Of a stretch of DNA of 21,794 nt, positions 4,755 through 21,794 are shown one piece after another; position 1 is the first letter of the stretch; every line of letters begins with the position of its first letter. This stretch comes from a virus, in IMG/VR virus record IMGVR_UViG_3300027754_000494, positions 1-21,794 of that record; one strand, written 5' to 3'. A model generated the notes under the pieces. The model saw only the letters and a program-made list of their open reading frames with translations, ran no database searches and was not told where the DNA came from. Made by a program: the position numbers and the translations under genes.

Positions 4755-4764
4755 ACCTATATTA
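4752..4764 (-). promoter_or_regulatory. Start-site motif TAATATAGGTATG (copy 1)
   Basis: This copy lies at the start of the 116-aa structural gene and is the first recognisable signal downstream of the terminator at 4792-4818, so here it might mark restarted transcription as well as translation. The AGG is only one base from the ATG, which is too close for a standard Shine-Dalgarno site. Confidence 0.4.
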
Positions 4765-4791
4765 GATGTTCACTTCAAAATGTTTAGAAAT

Positions 4792-4818
4792 AAAAAAAGC
4801 CCCACAAATTGCAGGGCT
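4792..4818 (-). terminator. Rho-independent terminator after the tail-tube gene
   Basis: On the minus strand AGCCCTGC and GTGGGGCT form an 8-bp stem (two G-T pairs) with an AATTT loop, followed directly by a run of six to seven T residues. It lies 21 bases past the stop of the tail-tube-like gene. It would end or thin the transcript that carries the capsid and tube genes before the portal-lysis group. Confidence 0.85.
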
Positions 4819-4838
4819 GATTTTAGAAAGGCAATAGA

Positions 4839-5381: not shown

Positions 5382-5401
5382 GTTTTTTAAGTTTTATATA
5401 A

Positions 5402-5417
5402 AGGGGGTTGCCCCCCT
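5402..5417 (-). other. Strong hairpin with a GCAA tetraloop between capsid and tail-tube genes
   Basis: On the minus strand AGGGGG and CCCCCT form a 6-bp stem closed by the loop GCAA, a GNRA tetraloop. It stands about 15 bases after the capsid stop codon and about 20 bases before the next start. The bases after it (TTTATATAAAAC) are not a T-run, so it is a poor terminator. An mRNA 3'-end stabiliser or processing site that lets capsid mRNA outlast the rest is a better guess. Confidence 0.6.
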
Positions 5418-5431
5418 CTATGAATTAATAA

Positions 5432-7325: not shown

Positions 7326-7335
7326 ACCTATATTA
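7323..7335 (-). promoter_or_regulatory. Start-site motif TAATATAGGTATG (copy 2)
   Basis: This copy is at the start of the protease-scaffold gene, in the 43-base space between the divergent protease and chaperone genes. No TTTG/TAnnTTTG pair is seen for the minus strand here, although the head gene transcript cannot have come through a co-directional neighbour within the last 1.3 kb. Confidence 0.4.
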
Positions 7336-7344
7336 TATTATTTG

Positions 7345-7352
7345 TATATTTG
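7345..7352 (+). promoter_or_regulatory. Possible Bacteroidota -7 element for the chaperone genes
   Basis: TATATTTG matches the TAnnTTTG -7 consensus and lies 16 bases before the ATG at 7369. I see no TTG/TTTG at the proper distance upstream (around 7320-7327), so it is half a promoter at best. It overlaps the divergent start region of the protease gene. Confidence 0.4.
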
Positions 7353-7368
7353 TAAAAAAATTAAAACT

Positions 7369-7905
7369 ATGATAACTATTTTAGGAAGGGATATCCCTAA
7401 CCACCTTGACGAGCTGACTATAGAGCAGTTTGAAGTAATAACAGAGCTTAGCAACAATAAGGAATTGGATGCTGTAGATAAGCACTTACAAATCTTTGCT
7501 AGCCTAGGATTAGCTGAAAGTGAGTTCTATGATGTAGACGTGGCTGACTTTATTGAGTACACCAATGCATTCAATACTATCCCTGAGGTAGACTACCCTA
7601 CCATCTCAAAAATTGAGTTAGCAGGATACAGCTACACAGCTGAGCTTAAAATGACAGTAAGAGATACTAAGCTTATTGAGAAGATAGCCATAGCTAAACC
7701 TAAAGGATATATCTCAGATGTCCTAGCAGTTTTCTTTAAGAGGGATGATCTTACACCTGCTGAGCATTATGCTGAGGCTCACCTTAAACTTAAGGCAAAA
7801 TTGATTAAAGAGCTTAAGGCTAACATAGCTATCCCTTACTTACTCTTTATCACTAACAAGCTAGCTAAACAAGTTGAAGATGTACCTTCCGAAGAAGTGG
7901 AGTAA
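7369..7905 (+). CDS. Putative tail assembly chaperone, first of a pair
   Basis: A 178-aa acidic, helical protein starting at the ATG at 7369. An in-frame TTG at 7342 would overlap the -7-like element and the divergent gene's leader, so I did not use it. Near the N-terminus it has ELTIEQFEVI (about 15-24), which matches SVEQFIEI in the next gene; this motif is common in short proteins before phage tape measure genes. I infer a gpG-like role: binding the tape measure protein and guiding tube assembly. It is on the plus strand, opposite to every other gene but its partner. Its last 26 bases overlap the second gene in the +1 frame. The function is inferred from general character and from a place between head and tail genes. 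Confidence 0.5.
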   Translation: MITILGRDIPNHLDELTIEQFEVITELSNNKELDAVDKHLQIFASLGLAESEFYDVDVADFIEYTNAFNTIPEVDYPTISKIELAGYSYTAELKMTVRDTKLIEKIAIAKPKGYISDVLAVFFKRDDLTPAEHYAEAHLKLKAKLIKELKANIAIPYLLFITNKLAKQVEDVPSEEVE

Positions 7906-8614
7906 TATCTCAGTTGAGCAGTTTATTGAGATAAGCCAAATAGACAAAGACCAGGGAGCCAATGGTTACAATAGTGAATTGATTTCTATAGTTACTGACA
8001 TGACCTATGAAGAGGTAGATGAGCTAGATCTAGATGATATGGTGCAGATGGTAAATGATATGAAGTGGTCAAACACTCAACCATCTAAACAATATAAGCA
8101 TGAGCTCTTAGGTATGAGAATAAAGCCATTGTCTAAGCTGTGCTTGTTTGAGTACATTGACCTGGACTATTACTTCAATGATAATTACCACACTAACCTA
8201 GATAAGATATGTGCTATCCTATACAGGCAAACTAAAGTAAATGAGTGGGGTGAGGTAGTACTGGAGACTTATGATTATGATATAAAAGTAAGAGCTGAGA
8301 AGTTTCTAGATCTACCAATTACTGATGTGTATGGTATAGTAGCTGAGTTTCTAAAGTTTAGGGAGAATTTTCTAGATGTGTATAAGAATTTGTTTGGCGA
8401 AGCTGAAGAGGAGCTAACAGCAGATGATAAGGCAGCCATGGAGCCTGAAGAGATAAAAGAGGTAGAGAAAGAAGTAAAAGAGAACAAATGGTCATGGGAG
8501 CGTATGATCTATGGCCTAACTGATGGTGACATCACAAAAAGTGAAGCTGTAGGAGCTCTACCACTTACCTATGTATTTAATATGTTGGGAATGAAAAAAG
8601 AGTTAGACATTTAA
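7880..8614 (+). CDS. Putative tail assembly chaperone, second of a pair
   Basis: A 244-aa protein; I chose the ATG at 7880 rather than the TTG at 7874. The N-terminus (WSNISVEQFIEISQ, 7-20) echoes the first gene. A long Glu/Lys-rich linker (about 168-203) leads to a compact C-terminal part (WSWERMIYGLTDGDITKSE, then LPLTYVFNML) of a type I associate with gpGT-like partners in Bacteroidota phages. It overlaps the first gene by 26 bases in another frame, so it could be made by re-initiation or as a +1 frameshift fusion; no slippery sequence is evident. Its end converges with the 156-aa minus-strand gene, overlapping by 12 bases with no terminator between. The call rests on resemblance and context. 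Confidence 0.5.
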   Translation: MYLPKKWSNISVEQFIEISQIDKDQGANGYNSELISIVTDMTYEEVDELDLDDMVQMVNDMKWSNTQPSKQYKHELLGMRIKPLSKLCLFEYIDLDYYFNDNYHTNLDKICAILYRQTKVNEWGEVVLETYDYDIKVRAEKFLDLPITDVYGIVAEFLKFRENFLDVYKNLFGEAEEELTADDKAAMEPEEIKEVEKEVKENKWSWERMIYGLTDGDITKSEAVGALPLTYVFNMLGMKKELDI

Positions 8615-9073: not shown

Positions 9074-10266
9074 TACAATCCTCCATCATTAATATTCCAT
9101 AAAAACACATTTGTAAGCCTTGCCCTGCCTACTATACCTGCAGGTGAATATTTTGCTGTGCCAAAATCAACAGGGCTTAACCCTAATATAACATCATATT
9201 CGCTCCATCCATTGTAGATAGCATCAAGGTTAGCAGTAGAGAAAGTGGCAGGTGTTTTACTAGCCATGAAATCTTGAAAATCATTGACAATAGATACATC
9301 CCAAGCTCCTATGTTTTGATTAAAATTAGTTGCACCATAAAACATAGCATTCATATTTACAACTTGCTCGGTAACAAAAGCCAATGGTTGATTAAAAGAA
9401 GATGCATTATAGAACATATTACCCATATCAGTAACTGATCCTGTACTAAGACTTAATATACCATTGAAAGAAGATGCATTAGCAAACATACTATTCATAT
9501 CATTAACATTCTCTGTATTAAAACTTAACGCTTGATTAAAATTAGTTGCACCATTAAACATACTACTCATACTAGTGACCTGTCCTGTATCCCATAGATT
9601 AATATTATTTATCGTAATTGTATTTGAATTGGCAAACATTTGAGAAAGATTAGTTATATTTTGTAAATTAAGGATATCAGATACTAATGATAAATCTAAG
9701 TTAGTGCAACTATTAAAATACCCTGCATTATTAGCACCTAACTCAAGCTGCCCCCAATGTACTACCGATGTAATATAAGTTGCACTTCCATAGGAACCAA
9801 AATTCCACCCGATACAATCCCCAATTATCTCAACAGTATAAGTGCCTGCTAAGGCATAAGTATGAGAACTGTTAGCAAAACTATTTACATCTGTACTGTT
9901 ATCTCCCCAATCTATAGTTCCTGAATAAGTACCTGCTGGATCATAGGGTAGAGTGATAGTTTCGTTTGGAATTGTAGTAGTCCATGTAGTAGTGAAATAT
10001 ACAGGAGGTCCTGCTGTTATAGTTTCCCATTCTTCTATTACATTAAGGCTATTAGCAGTTCCTGATAAAGTTACGACTAAATCCTCCATATAATTTACAG
10101 AGTTAGCAGCATCACCACCCTGAGCTTCTAAGATATCAAACATTAGACACTTAGATTGATTAGGATTAACACCATAGTATTCAGCTATGCCAATGAGTAA
10201 GCTAGTATCATCATAACCTGTTACTCCTAAATTTGTTGCTATTTGTTGTAGTGTATTATTCGCCAT
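9073..10266 (-). CDS. PKD plus BspA-like repeat protein (putative tail adhesin)
   Basis: A 397-aa protein with three parts. Residues 1-80 are a helical N-terminal part of unknown type that may attach to the virion. Residues ~95-150 look like a PKD domain (IDWGDNSTD, then HTYALAGTYTVEI). Residues ~180-336 hold about five or six ~23-residue BspA-like leucine-rich repeats (DUF285 type): VTSMSSMFNGATNFNQ, VNDMNSMFANASSFNG, VTDMGNMFYNASSFNQ, VVNMNAMFYGATNFNQ, with WDVSIVNDFQDFM as a closing unit. BspA repeats occur in bacterial surface proteins that bind host proteins or glycans. No signal peptide is present, as expected of a virion protein. I infer surface display, perhaps for host adhesion. Its start carries the variant motif TAATATAGTTATG. 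Confidence 0.75.
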   Translation of the reverse strand: MANNTLQQIATNLGVTGYDDTSLLIGIAEYYGVNPNQSKCLMFDILEAQGGDAANSVNYMEDLVVTLSGTANSLNVIEEWETITAGPPVYFTTTWTTTIPNETITLPYDPAGTYSGTIDWGDNSTDVNSFANSSHTYALAGTYTVEIIGDCIGWNFGSYGSATYITSVVHWGQLELGANNAGYFNSCTNLDLSLVSDILNLQNITNLSQMFANSNTITINNINLWDTGQVTSMSSMFNGATNFNQALSFNTENVNDMNSMFANASSFNGILSLSTGSVTDMGNMFYNASSFNQPLAFVTEQVVNMNAMFYGATNFNQNIGAWDVSIVNDFQDFMASKTPATFSTANLDAIYNGWSEYDVILGLSPVDFGTAKYSPAGIVGRARLTNVFLWNINDGGL

Positions 10267-10276
10267 AACTATATTA
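10264..10276 (-). promoter_or_regulatory. Start-site motif, variant TAATATAGTTATG (copy 3)
   Basis: This copy differs by one base (T for G at -3) and so lacks AGG altogether. It stands at the start of the PKD/BspA-like gene in a 29-base gap. ACAAAT is seen 15 to 20 bases further upstream, as at three of the other four copies. Confidence 0.35.
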
Positions 10277-10295
10277 GTTTAGTAAAGTGATTTGT

Positions 10296-10730
10296 TTAGA
10301 TCGGTACTGCACAATCAGTCCAGTCATTGACAGTAAGTGTGATACTCATCTGATACCCTGCAGCGTAATCTAGCAAGTCATTGTTGAGGGGAGTAAAGGT
10401 AGGCACACCTACCACATCAAAGCTATAGTCAGTGCTATCCATATAGTAGATGTACAAATCATTAAGTATCTGCTGAGTGTCACTTAAAATGGTGATGATG
10501 TTAGCTCTATCTTTTTGTATTATATCATAGCAGTAAATATCAAAGGTGAACTCAGTAGTATTTTCTGTAGGTATTACCCCACTAGGTACTATATACACCA
10601 GGGGGTACTTCTCATTTTGAGTAGCAAAGTTATACAGCTGTTCTTTGAAGTCGCTGCCTACCTTAAAGACTTGCTTATGGGCTGTATAGAATGCTGTGAT
10701 GTGGTTAATTATTGCTTGTAAGGAATTCAT
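10296..10730 (-). CDS. Putative tail terminator/completion protein
   Basis: A 144-aa protein with an N-terminal helix, then YPLVYIVPSGVIP (about 38-50), EFTFDIYCYDIIQKDRANIITILSDTQQIL (about 60-89, given here only as a range with the core DIYCYDIIQKDR), and a final strand pair (YQMSITLTVNDW). This strand-helix-strand pattern, with the aromatic and charged core, is that of tail terminator proteins that cap the tube and meet the connector. It lies just downstream of the tape measure gene (4-base ATGA overlap). The position next to the gp10-like gene at 8603-9073 also fits head-tail joining. Similarity to a named family is not certain. Confidence 0.5.
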   Translation of the reverse strand: MNSLQAIINHITAFYTAHKQVFKVGSDFKEQLYNFATQNEKYPLVYIVPSGVIPTENTTEFTFDIYCYDIIQKDRANIITILSDTQQILNDLYIYYMDSTDYSFDVVGVPTFTPLNNDLLDYAAGYQMSITLTVNDWTDCAVPI

Positions 10731-17239: not shown

Positions 17240-17249
17240 ACCTATATTA
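17237..17249 (-). promoter_or_regulatory. Start-site motif TAATATAGGTATG (copy 4)
   Basis: This copy marks the start of the 486-aa tail gene. Upstream, the 21-base spacer to the stop of the 59-aa gene contains TCAAATCTAAA; ACAAAT overlaps that stop codon. No host-type -33/-7 pair is seen. Confidence 0.4.
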
Positions 17250-17260
17250 TTTAGATTTGA

Positions 17261-17440
17261 TTATTTGTTTTTGAACTCAGCCATAGCCACAGCATAAGCT
17301 TGATCTAGTAGCTGAAGGTGCAGCTGCATCCTATCAGGTCTATTGAATACTATCCTAACATTCTTGCCTGTCTTATGGTGGATGTATGCCTGCACCACTT
17401 GTATCTTATGTAGTATATCAGAATGCATAGTATGAATCAT
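17261..17440 (-). CDS. Small protein overlapping the end of the large terminase gene
   Basis: A 59-aa frame starting at ATG 17440, 23 bases inside the end of the large terminase gene in another frame (an internal ATG at 17428 is the alternative). The protein is basic and helical: MIHTMHSDILHKIQ, then YIHHKTGKNVRIVFNRPDR, then a helical LHLQLLDQAYAVAMAEFKNK. It fills the otherwise empty space between terL and the tail gene, and the coupled overlap suggests a true gene. I do not recognise the family. The basic middle part could bind nucleic acid, or it could be a small packaging or tail helper. Confidence 0.6.
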   Translation of the reverse strand: MIHTMHSDILHKIQVVQAYIHHKTGKNVRIVFNRPDRMQLHLQLLDQAYAVAMAEFKNK

Positions 17441-18566
17441 CAGTGTAGTACTCCTGCCTTATGTGAGTAGTGGCATAACGGATGGCATCCATTGCATCAT
17501 CAAATAGCTTGACTGGTTCGTCAGTTATAAAATCTCCTATCTTCTTCCACTTGTAATTCTCATACTCTCGCCTTATGGCCTTATCATCCTGGCAAAATAC
17601 TCCGAAGGTCTTAAGGTTGTCTATGCCTTTCTTAACTACTTTGTTTGCATTCTGCACATCATACCCTGCTATGTTCATCTCCTGTATTATTTCAGGTCTA
17701 GAGTAATCTGCTAAGATGGTTACCGTTTGTTCTATGTTGAGGGTTGCTAGCTTCTCAATGAGCATGGTAGTGGTTAGGTAGCTTTCATATATCACAGGCT
17801 CTATGTAGATATCATTGTCGCAGTAGTACACCCTCATCAAAGCTGTGGGGTGATTGTATCCAAAGTCTAATCCATATACATACTTAACAAACCTTGAGGG
17901 CCTATGAGCTACAAAGGTCCATTGACTATAGATGTTACTCTTACTGATAGCCTTCTCACCTAGGGCATAGATCTGATACAGTGCCTCATCTGTTCTAGCT
18001 AAATCCTCTATCTGAGCCTTGATACTATCAGGTAGGAATGGGTTATCTTTGTAGGTGCTCTTTATCTTTATGCTTTCCTCAGCAGGTAGCTCATATAACC
18101 AGGATGCACTATCACTAGGGTTATAGTCAAAGATAAGCTTGTCCTCAGTTCTCATATTGAGCTGAGTGAAGTCATCGAAGTACAGCTCATTGGCTTCATT
18201 ACACCAGGCTATGTCTCTCTTCCTACCCCTTATCTTTTGCTCATCATCTACACTAAAGAACTCTACCATAGATCCATTAGCAAAGGTATAGATGTGCTCA
18301 CTCTTGTTATGCATCTCCTGCTTATACAGCCCTATATCTTTTAGTATCTCTATAAAGTCTCTGAGCACTGTAGCACGTAGGGCAGGGAAGGTCTTACGTA
18401 TCACTGACACCACCTTATTGTTATTCTGCAGGCAGTAGATGATCATGAGCTGACAAAGGCTGTAAGTCTTAGAGCTTCTACTACCACCCTCATTAATTAT
18501 GAAGCGTTTATCTCCTGCTATGGCATCATAGTTCTTTTCAAAGATTGCAGTCGCTTTTATATCCAT
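17418..18566 (-). CDS. terL: Terminase large subunit
   Basis: A 382-aa packaging motor. The ATPase part has Walker A GGSRSSKT (27-34), a Walker B-like RDIAWCNEANE (117-127) with Glu124 as the likely catalytic residue, and FDYNPSD (146-152) as the coupling segment typical of this family. The nuclease part has YGLDFGYNHP with Asp234, LADYSRPE with Asp287, and LFDDAMDAIRYA with Asp356/357 and Asp360, the RNase H-like acidic set. It cuts concatemers and pumps DNA into the prohead through the portal. The length is on the short side but all motifs are present. An AG-rich, six-G stretch precedes the start. The PBSX/Terminase_3-like group fits best. Confidence 0.95.
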   Translation of the reverse strand: MDIKATAIFEKNYDAIAGDKRFIINEGGSRSSKTYSLCQLMIIYCLQNNNKVVSVIRKTFPALRATVLRDFIEILKDIGLYKQEMHNKSEHIYTFANGSMVEFFSVDDEQKIRGRKRDIAWCNEANELYFDDFTQLNMRTEDKLIFDYNPSDSASWLYELPAEESIKIKSTYKDNPFLPDSIKAQIEDLARTDEALYQIYALGEKAISKSNIYSQWTFVAHRPSRFVKYVYGLDFGYNHPTALMRVYYCDNDIYIEPVIYESYLTTTMLIEKLATLNIEQTVTILADYSRPEIIQEMNIAGYDVQNANKVVKKGIDNLKTFGVFCQDDKAIRREYENYKWKKIGDFITDEPVKLFDDAMDAIRYATTHIRQEYYTDDSYYAF

Positions 18567-18598: not shown

Positions 18599-18628
18599 GT
18601 TATTATTATTATTATACTACTACTACTA
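18599..18628 (-). repeat. Stop-codon microsatellite between terS and terL
   Basis: On the minus strand the small terminase stop is followed by further copies in frame: four TAG units in a row (18617-18628), then TAT and four AAT units, then AAC (that is, a TAA/AAT repeat). The strand continues with CTCTCTGAGAG (a near-palindrome) and a G-run. The spacer runs from 18567 to 18625 and contains no gene. It may be slippage-prone; any link to packaging-site recognition is conjecture. Confidence 0.75.
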
Positions 18629-19039
18629 CTTAACTATAGTAACAGTGATAGCTGATATCTTCTCATCACCACTGGTTACATCTGTATGCTCTTTTAATGC
18701 ATTGAGACGTTGAGTTATGGATGGGTTAAACTGTCCTACCATTCCTCCTGTGATCTGATCGTTACGGATCTCTTTCTTTATGTGCGAACAGACTGTCCTA
18801 TATTCAGAATATCTGTTATCAGTATTATCAAAATAATGGTGCACATCACTGTAGTTATTATAGCAAAATATCTCAAAGCCCTCATTAGTCAAAGGTACCC
18901 TTAATGGTTCTGCTACCATCTCAGCAGTCTTTTGAGACAGCACCCATTTAGTCCTGGGGTTAGCAGCACAATGATCCTTGTAAGCCTCAAATATCTCCAT
19001 TAACTTCTCAGGAGTTTCTATCAGTTTAGGCTTAGGCAT
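18626..19039 (-). CDS. terS: Terminase small subunit
   Basis: A 137-aa protein directly upstream of terL. It has the features of the DNA-packaging small subunit seen in Bacteroidota phages: TPEKLMEIFEAYKDHC at the start, LTNEGFEIFCYNN (about 51-63), and a helical core YRTVCSHIKKEIRNDQITGG with GQFNPSITQRLN (about 102-113). It should recognise the packaging site and load the large subunit. The C-terminus ends in a short beta-like AITVTIVK and a run of four in-frame TAG stops. Its first 8 bases overlap the 63-aa gene. The adjacency to terL makes the call firm even though I cannot name the Pfam family with certainty. Confidence 0.85.
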   Translation of the reverse strand: MPKPKLIETPEKLMEIFEAYKDHCAANPRTKWVLSQKTAEMVAEPLRVPLTNEGFEIFCYNNYSDVHHYFDNTDNRYSEYRTVCSHIKKEIRNDQITGGMVGQFNPSITQRLNALKEHTDVTSGDEKISAITVTIVK

Positions 19040-19223
19040 CTTTATCGTTCTCTACCCCTTTATACTTTACCTTAGGAGTGCTCTCTTCAAATAAGTAACC
19101 TAACCCAATCGAGGTATAGTACTTATGCTCATTAGCCATCTCTTCTGTGACCTCTATTGTGGTCTCATAGTTGCCATTGTAGGTAGTAATGTACGTACCT
19201 AGGTGTTCATTCTTTGTCTTCAT
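19032..19223 (-). CDS. Hypothetical 63-aa protein before terS
   Basis: A 63-aa acidic protein (MKTKNEHLGTYITTY at the start, two or three short strands with YETTIEVTEEM, then YYTSIGLGYLFEES and a charged end). No family is recognised. It overlaps the preceding 54-aa membrane protein gene by 17 bases and the small terminase gene by 8 bases, so it looks like part of a translationally coupled string. A role in packaging is suggested only by place. Confidence 0.6.
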   Translation of the reverse strand: MKTKNEHLGTYITTYNGNYETTIEVTEEMANEHKYYTSIGLGYLFEESTPKVKYKGVENDKDA

Positions 19224-19371
19224 ACTGTGTTAAAATTAAAAATGTATAATAAAAAGCTATCCATAACCCTGCAGCTCTACTGGCCCACTCATAGTCTAAA
19301 CAAAACAAAGCAAGTCCACAGCTCAGAGCTATTAACAGGCTAAAGATACTAATAACTTGGCTCGGTTTCAT
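19207..19371 (-). CDS. Small membrane protein, 54 aa
   Basis: A 54-codon frame from the ATG at 19371 to a TGA at 19207-19209. The sequence is strongly hydrophobic in two parts: VISIFSLLIALSCGLALFCL (6-25) and AGLWIAFYYTFLIL (34-47), with DYEWASR between and a charged QYEDKE end. That is a helical hairpin in the membrane. It starts with a variant of the TAATATAGGTATG motif and overlaps the end of the sigma-like gene by 23 bases and the 63-aa gene by 17. Its function is unknown; many phages encode such small inner-membrane proteins. A second holin or antiholin is possible but has no support beyond topology. Confidence 0.65.
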   Translation of the reverse strand: MKPSQVISIFSLLIALSCGLALFCLDYEWASRAAGLWIAFYYTFLILTQYEDKE

Positions 19372-19882
19372 ACCTATATTGTAATTTGTTTATGTTTTGT
19401 TTCAATTCCTTTATTAGGTAGTAAGCTGAGGTATGAGTAATACCGAAATAAATAGCCATAGCTCTACTAGTAATATACCCCTTATCAATGTAAGCTTCAA
19501 ATACTATTAGCTGTATCTTATCTGTTATCTCATTCCTATAGATCTCTATTAACCCCTTATTAAAAGAGTAGGCTTTATCCTCCCTAAGCTTATGCACCAA
19601 ATCATCATCATCTACAGGCTCAGTATTGGGGTGCTCAATGGCTGTTATCTTATCATCCCGGTGACTCTTTGATGTACTCCACAGGATCTGATACTTAATT
19701 GTGTTTAGTAGATAACCTTTCACCTTATCAGGATCACCATCTATATTAACTACGTGAAGGTAGGAGTTGTTTATGACAGTATCAGCGTCTATGTAGCTCC
19801 CCATCTTAGATAGGAAGTAGGCAGTGTATGCCCTCACCTCAGCATAGTTGCTGCTAATGTACTTGTCTAAGGCTTTTTTCAT
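19349..19882 (-). CDS. RNA polymerase sigma-factor-like protein
   Basis: A 177-aa protein starting at ATG 19882 (the longer open frame to 20014 would lie inside the 71-aa gene, so I rejected it). The N-terminal part has a sigma-70 region 2-like pattern (TVINNSYLHVV, about 35-45, then VKGYLLNTIKYQILWS, about 54-69). An acidic linker with DDDD (91-94) follows. The C-terminal part, about 120-168, has a region 4-like helix-turn-helix (LIVFEAYIDKGYITSRAMAIYFGITHTSAYYLIKEL, core GITHTSAYYLIKEL). The whole has the layout of ECF-type sigma factors. It could redirect host RNA polymerase to late genes; it stands just before the packaging and structural genes. A host-type promoter lies 0.4 kb upstream at 20301-20331. 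A plain HTH regulator is the alternative. Confidence 0.65.
   Translation of the reverse strand: MKKALDKYISSNYAEVRAYTAYFLSKMGSYIDADTVINNSYLHVVNIDGDPDKVKGYLLNTIKYQILWSTSKSHRDDKITAIEHPNTEPVDDDDLVHKLREDKAYSFNKGLIEIYRNEITDKIQLIVFEAYIDKGYITSRAMAIYFGITHTSAYYLIKELKQNINKLQYRYETEPSY
19369..19381 (-). promoter_or_regulatory. Start-site motif, variant CAATATAGGTATG (copy 5)
   Basis: This copy is at the start of the 54-aa membrane protein gene, inside the coding end of the sigma-like gene. The motif is kept although it must also code there, except for a C in place of the first T. ACAAAT stands directly before it. Confidence 0.35.
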
Positions 19883-20069
19883 ACCATTGCATAAAGTCCT
19901 TGGACCATATCCTCCTCCTAACTGATGCACAAAAGCATTCCCTAGGCTGTCTACCTTCGTATTTCTCTTTAATTTTGTAGAGTTTAATACAGCTGTACTT
20001 AGTATACCTTTCACTATCAGGCATCTTAGCTATATTATCAATTAGTTCTATCTCAGCTTCTGTAAACAT
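19854..20069 (-). CDS. Small basic protein, 71 aa, before the sigma-like gene
   Basis: A 71-aa protein (MFTEAEIELIDNIAKMPDSE at the start, then LYKIKEKYEGRQPRECFCAS and VRRRIWSKDFMQWYEK). I recall similar short proteins with a PRECFC-SSVRR-like core in other Bacteroidota phages, usually near sigma-like genes. The basic region with two Cys and an Arg-rich helix suggests nucleic acid or RNA polymerase binding, but no function is known to me. It overlaps the 82-aa gene by 22 bases and the sigma-like gene by 29 bases. Confidence 0.65.
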   Translation of the reverse strand: MFTEAEIELIDNIAKMPDSERYTKYSCIKLYKIKEKYEGRQPRECFCASVRRRIWSKDFMQWYEKSLRQVH

Positions 20070-20296
20070 TCATCTAGTATATAAGCAAGCAGTGCAGCCT
20101 GACAAGCCAGGATAAAATCAAAGGTACAAAATATAGTAAGCCAAAAAGCCACACATTTAATACATCCTAAAGCAGAGTGTATATGTATGGCTAATGGGTA
20201 CCTGGTGTTATACTTGAATAAGTAGTTAAAAGTTGCTTGCAGTGGCTCAAAAGTAACAAACCACCAAGCTAAAGGTATAAGGGCTAGTAATATCAT
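20048..20296 (-). CDS. Small membrane protein with a CxxC motif, 82 aa
   Basis: An 82-aa protein with a hydrophobic N-terminus (ILLALIPLAWWFV, 2-14) and a second hydrophobic part (about 42-75) that opens with LGCIKCVAFWLTIF, a CxxC followed by FW. That C-x2-C-x3-W pattern is seen in short phage membrane proteins and in DUF1360-like proteins. The function is not known. The gene lies directly behind a consensus-type promoter whose start point falls at or next to its ATG, so it may be read from a leaderless mRNA. Confidence 0.6.
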   Translation of the reverse strand: MILLALIPLAWWFVTFEPLQATFNYLFKYNTRYPLAIHIHSALGCIKCVAFWLTIFCTFDFILACQAALLAYILDECLQKLR

Positions 20297-20300
20297 GGCC

Positions 20301-20331
20301 CAAATATAGTAATATTATTTAGAATGGCAAA
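20301..20331 (-). promoter_or_regulatory. Bacteroidota-type promoter (TTTG-N19-TATATTTG)
   Basis: On the minus strand TTTG (20328-20331), a 19-base spacer and TATATTTG (20301-20308) match the -33/-7 consensus of Bacteroidota primary sigma factor promoters. The start point would fall near 20294-20297, that is on the ATG of the 82-aa gene (20296). It would drive the 82-aa, 71-aa and sigma-like genes. The -33 box lies in the stop region of the DUF736-like gene upstream. Confidence 0.7.
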
Positions 20332-20576: not shown

Positions 20577-20675
20577 TTAATCATCAAATCCAAAATAGTC
20601 TTGTACCCATAAAATAGTTACTGCCCATCCCCAAACGACTGCTGGAGCTAGTAGTATTGATAGTAAAATTATCAT
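20577..20675 (-). CDS. Tiny membrane protein, 32 aa
   Basis: A 32-codon frame from ATG at 20675, overlapping the stop of the exonuclease gene by four bases (ATGA), to TAA at 20577-20579. It is hydrophobic from the second residue to about 24 (IILLSILLAPAVVWGWAVTI), with a charged end QDYFGFDD. That is one membrane segment. The ATGA overlap and the good fit into the space make a true gene likely. Its function is unknown. Confidence 0.5.
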   Translation of the reverse strand: MIILLSILLAPAVVWGWAVTILWVQDYFGFDD

Positions 20676-21343
20676 AGTTGTTTTATTAGTTCGTTAAAAT
20701 AATCCCTGCACTGTTCTACCCTCACCTTAATTTGCTCTATCACCTCATCATCTCTTTGTATTACAAAGGTCTTTACTCTTTTAGCATCAGGGATATGATT
20801 AAAGCTGTGCTGTTTCTGCACCTGGTCTCTAAGATCTAAACTCTCCTCCATTAGCCCTAACTTATAGTGAGCACTCTTTACCTCCTGCTCTACGATAGCA
20901 TGTGGTGTATTGGTTAGGCAGTAGCATAGTAGTGCTTCCTGCTTATCAGTTAGCCACATATACCCTTGGAGCTGATAGTAGTACTCTTTGTTAGGGCATT
21001 CAGTATCAAACCAAGGGAACGTGCTGCCACTCCATGAGTTCTTTACATCTACTAGCACCTGATCAGTAACCACATCAGGAGTACCTGTTAGCCACTCATT
21101 AGTGAAGTGCTCTTCATTCTTAAATATAAAGCCCTTGTCTATCTGCTCCATTACAAAGCTGAGGCACATATCCTCGCACTCATTACCCTTATCAGTATAC
21201 TTACTAGTAAACTCTTTTCTGATACCATAAACGTGTGCCAGGGCTAAGCCCTGGATATACGTTTTAGTTGTTTGTGATAGTACCTCCCCTTTAGTTTTGG
21301 ATGAGGTCATTATCTTACCTATAGCACTGCATCTAATTTTCAT
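20672..21343 (-). CDS. YqaJ-like PD-(D/E)XK exonuclease
   Basis: A 223-aa nuclease of the YqaJ/lambda Exo-like group. The active-site set is visible: KGNECEDM (Glu57, in the helix before the core), TGTPD (Asp90), VDVKNSW (Asp99, Lys101), and YYYQLQGYMWLT with Gln124, the conserved QLQGY helix. It would resect double-stranded DNA ends to give 3' tails for the ERF annealing protein, whose gene overlaps it by four bases (ATGA). Together they form a two-protein recombination system like Red or RecET. The length is as expected for the family. There is no membrane segment. Confidence 0.88.
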   Translation of the reverse strand: MKIRCSAIGKIMTSSKTKGEVLSQTTKTYIQGLALAHVYGIRKEFTSKYTDKGNECEDMCLSFVMEQIDKGFIFKNEEHFTNEWLTGTPDVVTDQVLVDVKNSWSGSTFPWFDTECPNKEYYYQLQGYMWLTDKQEALLCYCLTNTPHAIVEQEVKSAHYKLGLMEESLDLRDQVQKQHSFNHIPDAKRVKTFVIQRDDEVIEQIKVRVEQCRDYFNELIKQL

Positions 21344-21794
21344 ATTACAGGTATTAATAGTAATGCTTTCTCTTGCGTTTCTGTAAGGTCAAAGCTATCC
21401 TTTAACTTCTCTATGGTAAACTTACCATCTGATATAGTCTTAATAGCCTCAGTAAATCTCTTTGCATCTATCTTAGGCTTTGCAGTAGATGCTACGTGGC
21501 CATCATCATCTGTGGCTTGCAAAGTTAGCAAGCTTTGGATGGTGTACCTTCTGAAGTAAGAAATTTGACTACCCTGCTTCTGAGCATCTAGATTTAAGTC
21601 AAGTGCCATACAGCTACTGATAGAAAAGCCAGTATAAATACAAACAAGCTGAGTACAAACACTACCACCATCTATAGGCTGTAGCAAAAGTAGATCATGC
21701 TGTAATAAGATAGGCTCAACAGTCTCTAGGATACTATTGATATCTGCATAAGATTTCTTGAAATGGGGGTTAGTAGCATTCTTATGTACTTTAC
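21340..21794 (-). CDS. erf: ERF-family single-strand annealing protein (5' part outside the window)
   Basis: The visible 150 codons are open to the right edge. A TTG at 21687 is not the true start: the frame goes on upstream with KVHKNATNPHFKKSYADINS and then ILETVEPILLQHDL, the standard N-terminal region of ERF proteins. Downstream come SCMALDLNLDAQKQGSQISY (core GSQISYFRRYTIQSLL) and ATDDDGH, the ERF signature for folding and DNA binding. The C-terminal 50 residues form a separate charged helix with KLKDSF. ERF proteins anneal complementary single strands for recombination or genome circularisation. It stops in an ATGA overlap with the exonuclease gene, so the two are co-translated. Confidence 0.9.
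   Translation of the reverse strand, partial: KVHKNATNPHFKKSYADINSILETVEPILLQHDLLLLQPIDGGSVCTQLVCIYTGFSISSCMALDLNLDAQKQGSQISYFRRYTIQSLLTLQATDDDGHVASTAKPKIDAKRFTEAIKTISDGKFTIEKLKDSFDLTETQEKALLLIPVI

Follow-up and report, generated by a model that had tools for sequence, protein, structure and literature searches.

The phage analysed here very probably follows a two-class transcription scheme, in which a diverged sigma factor redirects the host RNA polymerase to phage-specific late promoters. The window, comprising all 21,794 nucleotides (positions 1-21,794) of IMG/VR record IMGVR_UViG_3300027754_000494, is a single virus record without host genome. It encodes a 177-residue sigma-like protein and contains a two-box motif, AAACA-N17-AATATAG, in front of its packaging and structural genes (Table 1). 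In the proposed mechanism, the host polymerase transcribes both classes. The host primary sigma factor, which recognizes TAHHTTTG -7 boxes, would read the early genes as well as the p82-p71-sigma operon, whose mRNA is predicted to start at the AUG. The 177-residue protein would bind the host core polymerase and direct the holoenzyme to the two-box motif, which heads each of the p54/terminase, g17239/tail, g10266, g7325/capsid (as a variant) and g4754/portal/lysis blocks. The resulting late mRNAs would usually be leaderless or near-leaderless. We infer the polymerase binding, the recognition of the motif by this protein, the exact start points, the timing and the Bacteroidota host.

Table 1. 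Coordinates of the features of the window that are discussed in the text.
Feature	Position	Strand	Remarks
SSB gene, 77 aa	20319-20552		ssDNA-binding protein; phrog_18154, 1.4e-11; acidic SSB-like DDDLPF tail
TTTG read earlier as -33 element	20328..20331	-	SSB DDDLPF tail codons, not conserved
Host-type (sigma-A) -7 box TATATTTG	20301..20308	-	4 nt before p82 ATG (20296)
p82	20048..20296	-	First operon gene; small membrane-like protein, GCxKCxxFW-type motif conserved
p71, 71 aa	19854..20069	-	CFC...R...W..DF..WYE-type signature; overlaps both neighbours at fixed offsets
Sigma-like protein, 177 aa	19349..19882	-	ATG 19882; all-helical, two domains, C-terminal HTH
PL1, late promoter AAACA-N17-AATATAG	19374..19402	-	Within 3' end of sigma gene; p54-p63-terS-terL-g17440 predicted
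p54	19207..19371	-	First gene of late block 1; predicted (near-)leaderless from PL1
Terminase small subunit (terS)	18626..19039	-	phrog_606
Terminase large subunit (terL)	17418..18566	-	Terminase_3
PL2, late promoter	17242..17270	-	Before g17239, then g15777, g12916, g10730
PL3, late promoter	10269..10297	-	Before g10266
Host-type box TATATTTG	7345..7352	+	For two + strand genes, 7369-8614; on PL4 -35
PL4, variant late promoter	7328..7353	-	-35 ACAAAT, shorter spacer, -10 AATATAG; before g7325
PL5, late promoter	4757..4785	-	Before g4754, portal, holin-like, amidase, further genes

The phage group and its genome

The best terminase matches, about 32% identical, are to phages of Parabacteroides, Bacteroides and Flavobacterium and point to Bacteroidota as the host phylum. 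The group is a widespread, uncultured freshwater one, probably with Bacteroidota hosts. One of its IMG/VR records (G030; L492, L493), 37,405 bases long, begins to repeat itself after 27,842 bases, suggesting that it spans an entire, circularly permuted genome of some 27.8 kb. The window has a recombination module ahead of the sigma operon, in which a RecE-like exonuclease adjoins an Erf-type annealing protein (20672-21792). The interior of g10266 bears four direct repeats with a spacing of 72 bases (9316-9571).

A two-box motif heads the late blocks

Four copies of AAACA-N17-AATATAG are present in the window, where 0.02 are expected, and 0 of 100 shuffles gave this number. All four are located on the minus strand at gene starts and end 2 nt short of the ATG (p54, g17239, g10266 and g4754). 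A variant precedes g7325. In the upstream sequences of all genes, these five share the ending AATATAGGT (once AATATAGTT) directly followed by the ATG. The AAC of the upstream box is typical of ECF -35 elements. Downstream of PL4, the protease-like g7325 is followed by a virion structural protein and g5381; g12916, in the PL2 block, is tape-measure-like by size and place. PL5 is preceded by a terminator-like hairpin and a T run. Such hairpins part the late blocks at 4786-4838 (AGCCC...GGGGCTTTTTTT, before PL5) and at 5382-5431 (GGGGGGCAACCCCC, before g5381).

The motif recurs throughout the relatives. In 87 non-redundant loci (1.0 Mb) we found 150 copies, compared with 0-3 in Markov simulations; all are in the sense orientation, and a spacer of 17 dominates. 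The wider set of 265 sigma-bearing loci contains about 228 late-motif sites 2-14 nt before a gene start, with 195 at 2 nt from the ATG, 9 at 3-4 nt and 24 at 13-14 nt, counts slightly inflated by contigs that are present as two overlapping stretches (the sites at 2 nt include 121 distinct sequences). No copy was detected upstream of the sigma-like gene (~1.27 Mb) or in antisense in the 265 loci. In the copies with the ATG 13 nt away (GTAAAGAGAAGTAATG), it is the distance between the two boxes that stays constant, not that from the upstream box to the ATG. The 33 sites with the ATG 3-14 nt away thus indicate a promoter, not a start-codon context. One clade (L396) carries AACATAG in place of the usual second box, and the sigma clades L407 and L435 have only 3 and 4 late sites, respectively.

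The position of the motif is gene-specific. Among relatives, it precedes p54 in 65 of 65 cases, g10266 in 8 of 8, g4754 in 16 of 19 and g17239 in 57 of 107, and its -10 part is found at g7325 in 26 of 27. The comparison covered 26 window genes; at the remaining 21, the count of the full motif is zero. The motif-bearing genes are the heads of the terminase, tail, capsid and portal/lysis blocks, named from PHROG matches except for the tail, which is assigned by size and place. The sequence-only reading had described the packaging and structural genes as devoid of host-type promoters, and host boxes are indeed nearly absent ahead of the late blocks, the exception being the plus-strand pair at 7369-8614. 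Raw matches ending in GATGTG or GATGTATC (L208, L453, L390, L396) were not counted as promoters because they are located in p63-like coding sequence (GNMTVVVDNIDVSKY). Matches with spacers of 12, 16 or 20 were likewise set aside, since they arise from overlapping AAACA copies within sites already counted or from the coding sequence of the sigma gene.

The motif is associated with the sigma-like gene. When IMG/VR was scanned with AAACA-N17-AATATAGGTATG, 116 of the 118 testable loci among the matches listed carried two or more homologues of proteins encoded in the window; the remaining two among these matches sit in records of 126 and 135 kb. Whole-record searches of 43 motif records gave 18 matches to the sigma-like profile, and nearly all others are fragments under 18 kb. 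Among phage-group records of 20-40 kb searched whole, the sigma-like gene is present in 11 of 12, including G037, whose contig ends after the first residues of the gene. It was not found in the whole-record search of G015, a 25.8-kb record of uncertain completeness.

A putative late promoter nested in the sigma-like gene and an overlapping promoter pair

PL1 is embedded in the 3'-terminal codons of the sigma-like gene, which encode KQN...QYRYE. Codon choice there is AAA, CAA and TAT in 479 of 480 instances, compared with 36% for these residues in the remainder of the same genes; the counts are inflated by sequence relatedness, but adjacent codons of these genes are variable. Judged by codon usage, this freezing of synonymous codons is a DNA-level constraint. 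The clades without QYRYE (L208, L396, L407, L435, L453) have no late-motif copy at that place.

At g7325, a host-type and a late promoter point in opposite directions. The host box of the plus-strand pair is kept in 31 of 31 relatives and lies on the -35 element of PL4 (7326-7369), so mutual exclusion of the host and late holoenzymes is predicted. On balance, and with some reserve, we favour a still broader reading: an unrecognised late sigma family, hidden from sequence profiles, in a large clade of small freshwater Bacteroidota phages, with a mostly leaderless regulon, one promoter inside the sigma gene and an early/late exclusion switch at the 7326-7369 overlap.

A conserved host-type box precedes the sigma operon

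Nearly all close relatives have the genes in the order p82-p71-sigma-p54-p63-terS, with constant overlaps. In most clades the p82 and p71 ATGs are located at -414 and -187 relative to the sigma ATG. The conserved sigma start is the ATG at 19882 (MK start); a GTG at 20014 was considered as the start and rejected. The CFC...R...W..DF..WYE signature of p71 is maintained in nearly all sigma clades and matches no known family. The linkage of p71 is as strict as that of the sigma-like gene, and p71 is a candidate partner of the sigma-like protein.

A promoter of the form TTTG-N19-TATATTTG had been proposed for p82 at 20301-20331. The sequence TTTGCCATTCTAAATAATATTACTATATTTG is present at 20331..20301 on the minus strand, exactly as described, and is the window's single exact match to TTTG-N19-TATATTTG. 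Relaxed to TTTG-N17..21-TANNTTTG, the pattern matches twice where 0.61 matches are expected. Since 12 of 100 shuffles equal that, the lone host-type match is not significant by itself.

Comparison of relatives separates the two elements of this promoter. The -7 box is kept 3-5 nt before the p82 ATG across 62 distinct upstream sequences, as TATATTTG, TACATTTG or TATCTTTG in most relatives and with TTTA in a few. It is retained even where the upstream gene is other than SSB, which unrelated genes of 70-odd residues replace in other clades. The -33 TTTG of the window falls within the codons GAT TTG CCA, which encode part of the DDDLPF tail of SSB; relatives have TCTA, TTTA or other sequences there, and we rejected it as a conserved promoter element. 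The host-type promoter of p82 thus stands in its -7 box and falls in its -33 element.

Promoters of Flavobacterium johnsoniae have their -7 element at -12..-5 relative to the start point and lack a clear -33 element (PMC6847099). By this spacing, the first base of the p82 transcript would be the A of its ATG. A leaderless p82-p71-sigma transcript, as the sequence-only reading had suggested, is supported by this conserved box-to-ATG geometry. Boxes 3-7 nt from an ATG cluster at the operon head (63/76 in L125, 55/56 in L208), and other early-side genes (in G030, G033 and G038) have host-type boxes about 20-36 nt from the ATG, corresponding to ordinary leaders. Leaderless mRNAs are uncommon, accounting for 5.5% in F. 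psychrophilum (PMC9723704), and leaders under 10 nt make up about 3.7% in B. thetaiotaomicron (PMC7366714). For the late transcripts the term leaderless is less firm than for p82, because a host-like spacing from the upstream element would put the start a few bases inside the gene. A further candidate, TAGCTTTG before terL, was rejected as a host promoter. It has a G at -10, which is virtually absent in F. johnsoniae promoters (PMC6847099), and a box is found in only 26 of 143 relatives.

The 177-residue protein resembles sigma factors in fold

A tblastn search of 50,697 INPHARED phage records yielded no relative of the 177-residue protein, and none was found in the GTDB genomes scanned. The number of matching IMG/VR stretches grew from 233 to 465 and 510 as the query profile was widened. 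Our set of 265 non-redundant sigma-bearing loci contains 190 distinct proteins in 13 clusters at 70% identity; they are 41-100% identical to the window protein.

Sequence searches with single members and profiles against Pfam, PHROG, NCBIfam and the PDB did not find sigma. The Sigma70_r2 and Sigma70_r4 profiles do match control genomes and gave no match in the window even at an E value of 10. The sequence-only reading had named a profile search for sigma regions 2 and 4 as a check and counted missing hits against itself; no profile match was obtained. We judge that the evidence from the fold and the promoters outweighs this.

The AlphaFold2 model of the protein with 27 relatives has a pLDDT of 82.7 and a pTM of 0.40. 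In a Foldseek comparison with the PDB, first place (E 1.8e-3) goes to chain C of an RNA-guided transcription complex, followed by M. tuberculosis SigL at rank 2 (0.012). Ranks 2-34 are all sigma-factor entries, one being a sigma-like PhyR domain, and include the groups SigL, SigH, SigW, AlgU, RpoE, SigK, WhiG, sigma32, FliA and SigB. The matches extend across the full length of the model, beyond the HTH. The C-terminal HTH domain alone aligns with the -35-binding sigma4 domain of 3hug (TM 0.63, rmsd 3.1). An earlier, weaker AlphaFold2 model matches viral proteins named sigma-70 region 2 (E 3.8e-4).

The packing of the domains is unsure, since the whole-chain TM to sigma entries is low (~0.3) and the pTM is about 0.4 in both models; the low TM may reflect uncertain packing of the two domains. 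Profile-profile alignment to seven ECF sigma factors is colinear (11-160 to 19-158), with a weak E of 0.15, and the region 2.2-like helix is altered (VINNSY, compared with VQEAF in the ECF alignment). The best explanation from the modelled fold is that the 177-residue product is a highly diverged, ECF-like subunit of the sigma-70 family, containing regions 2 and 4.

Alternative explanations

The late motif could be real and yet be read by an alternative host sigma factor or another phage activator such as p71, the 177-residue protein being a sigma-fold DNA-binding regulator of the ArpU/RinA/Ltr type rather than a sigma subunit. The silence of the sigma profiles, the changed region 2.2-like helix and the equally strict linkage of p71 are all compatible with such a reader. 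It is nevertheless an unlikely one: the model matches sigma entries over its full length and not in the HTH only, the two boxes with a fixed spacer have the form of a sigma promoter, and among the IMG/VR matches listed the motif is confined to the phage group, which is not expected of a promoter for a host sigma factor.

Most copies stop precisely 2 nt short of the ATG, which would also fit an RNA-level signal, such as a start-codon context, a ribosome site or a processing site, in place of a promoter. The 24 copies at 13-14 nt and the 9 others at 3-4 nt, the fixing of the upstream box to the second box and not to the ATG, and the restriction to the first genes of blocks make this highly improbable. 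We consider it slightly less probable still that a helical phage protein merely resembles sigma and the motifs are unrelated chance matches. The host-type match in the single window is within chance; the late motifs, with four against 0.02 expected in the window and 150 against 0-3 in relatives, and the frozen synonymous codons, are not. A sigma relative with matching late signals makes it very likely that the virus redirects the host transcription machinery to its late genes. The earlier suggestion that the sigma-like protein could switch the host polymerase to these genes gains from the fold match and, above all, from the dedicated late promoter.

Comparison with known systems

Our searches of the open-licence literature turned up no late sigma factor of a Bacteroidota phage for which the cognate promoter has been identified. 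Our analysis provides a concrete candidate pair of factor and promoter that hundreds of environmental phages share, with protein identities of 41-100%. With it, the early and late parts of such genomes could be told apart from sequence alone, and the pair might serve as an orthogonal promoter system in Bacteroidota. It also illustrates that sigma-like regulators can escape profile annotation.

T4 gp55 is a late sigma factor whose TATAAATA late promoters consist of a single box and need the sliding clamp and gp33. It is likewise a phage sigma dedicated to late genes, whereas the promoters in the window have two boxes. The late regulators of the ArpU/RinA/Ltr/Xpf type are encoded near terS in Firmicutes phages, some with a sigma region 4-like domain. 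They share with our protein the gene position shortly before the terminase and the control of late genes, which for our protein is predicted; in contrast to them, the full-length model of the window protein is sigma-like and two-box promoters stand at every late block. The p82 box fits the -12..-5 position of the host sigma-A promoters known from Flavobacteriia and Bacteroides (TTTG / TAHHTTTG); in the hosts, leaderless transcripts and very short leaders are rare.

SaPh711_gp47 of phage 7-11 and gp36 of phiEco32 are phage sigma factors that make the host polymerase transcribe late genes (PMC8948821, PMC4331800), and the 7-11 factor uses bipartite late promoters, GTAAtg-(16)-aCTA (PMC8948821). 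A tblastn search of the 50,697 phage records gave no sequence relationship of our protein to gp36 or gp47. The traits of a late-sigma system are nonetheless apparent in the sequence: phage-specific promoters at late genes only, and a sigma gene behind a putative host-type promoter. As in both phages, a small sigma-like phage protein is combined with early genes under host sigma promoters. As in 7-11, bipartite promoters with a fixed spacer precede the late genes, and gp47 is the closest characterised analogue. Unlike the window phage, 7-11 and phiEco32 infect Salmonella and E. coli and have other promoter boxes; the window protein escapes the profiles, and its putative promoters mostly abut the start codon, with one inside the sigma gene itself.
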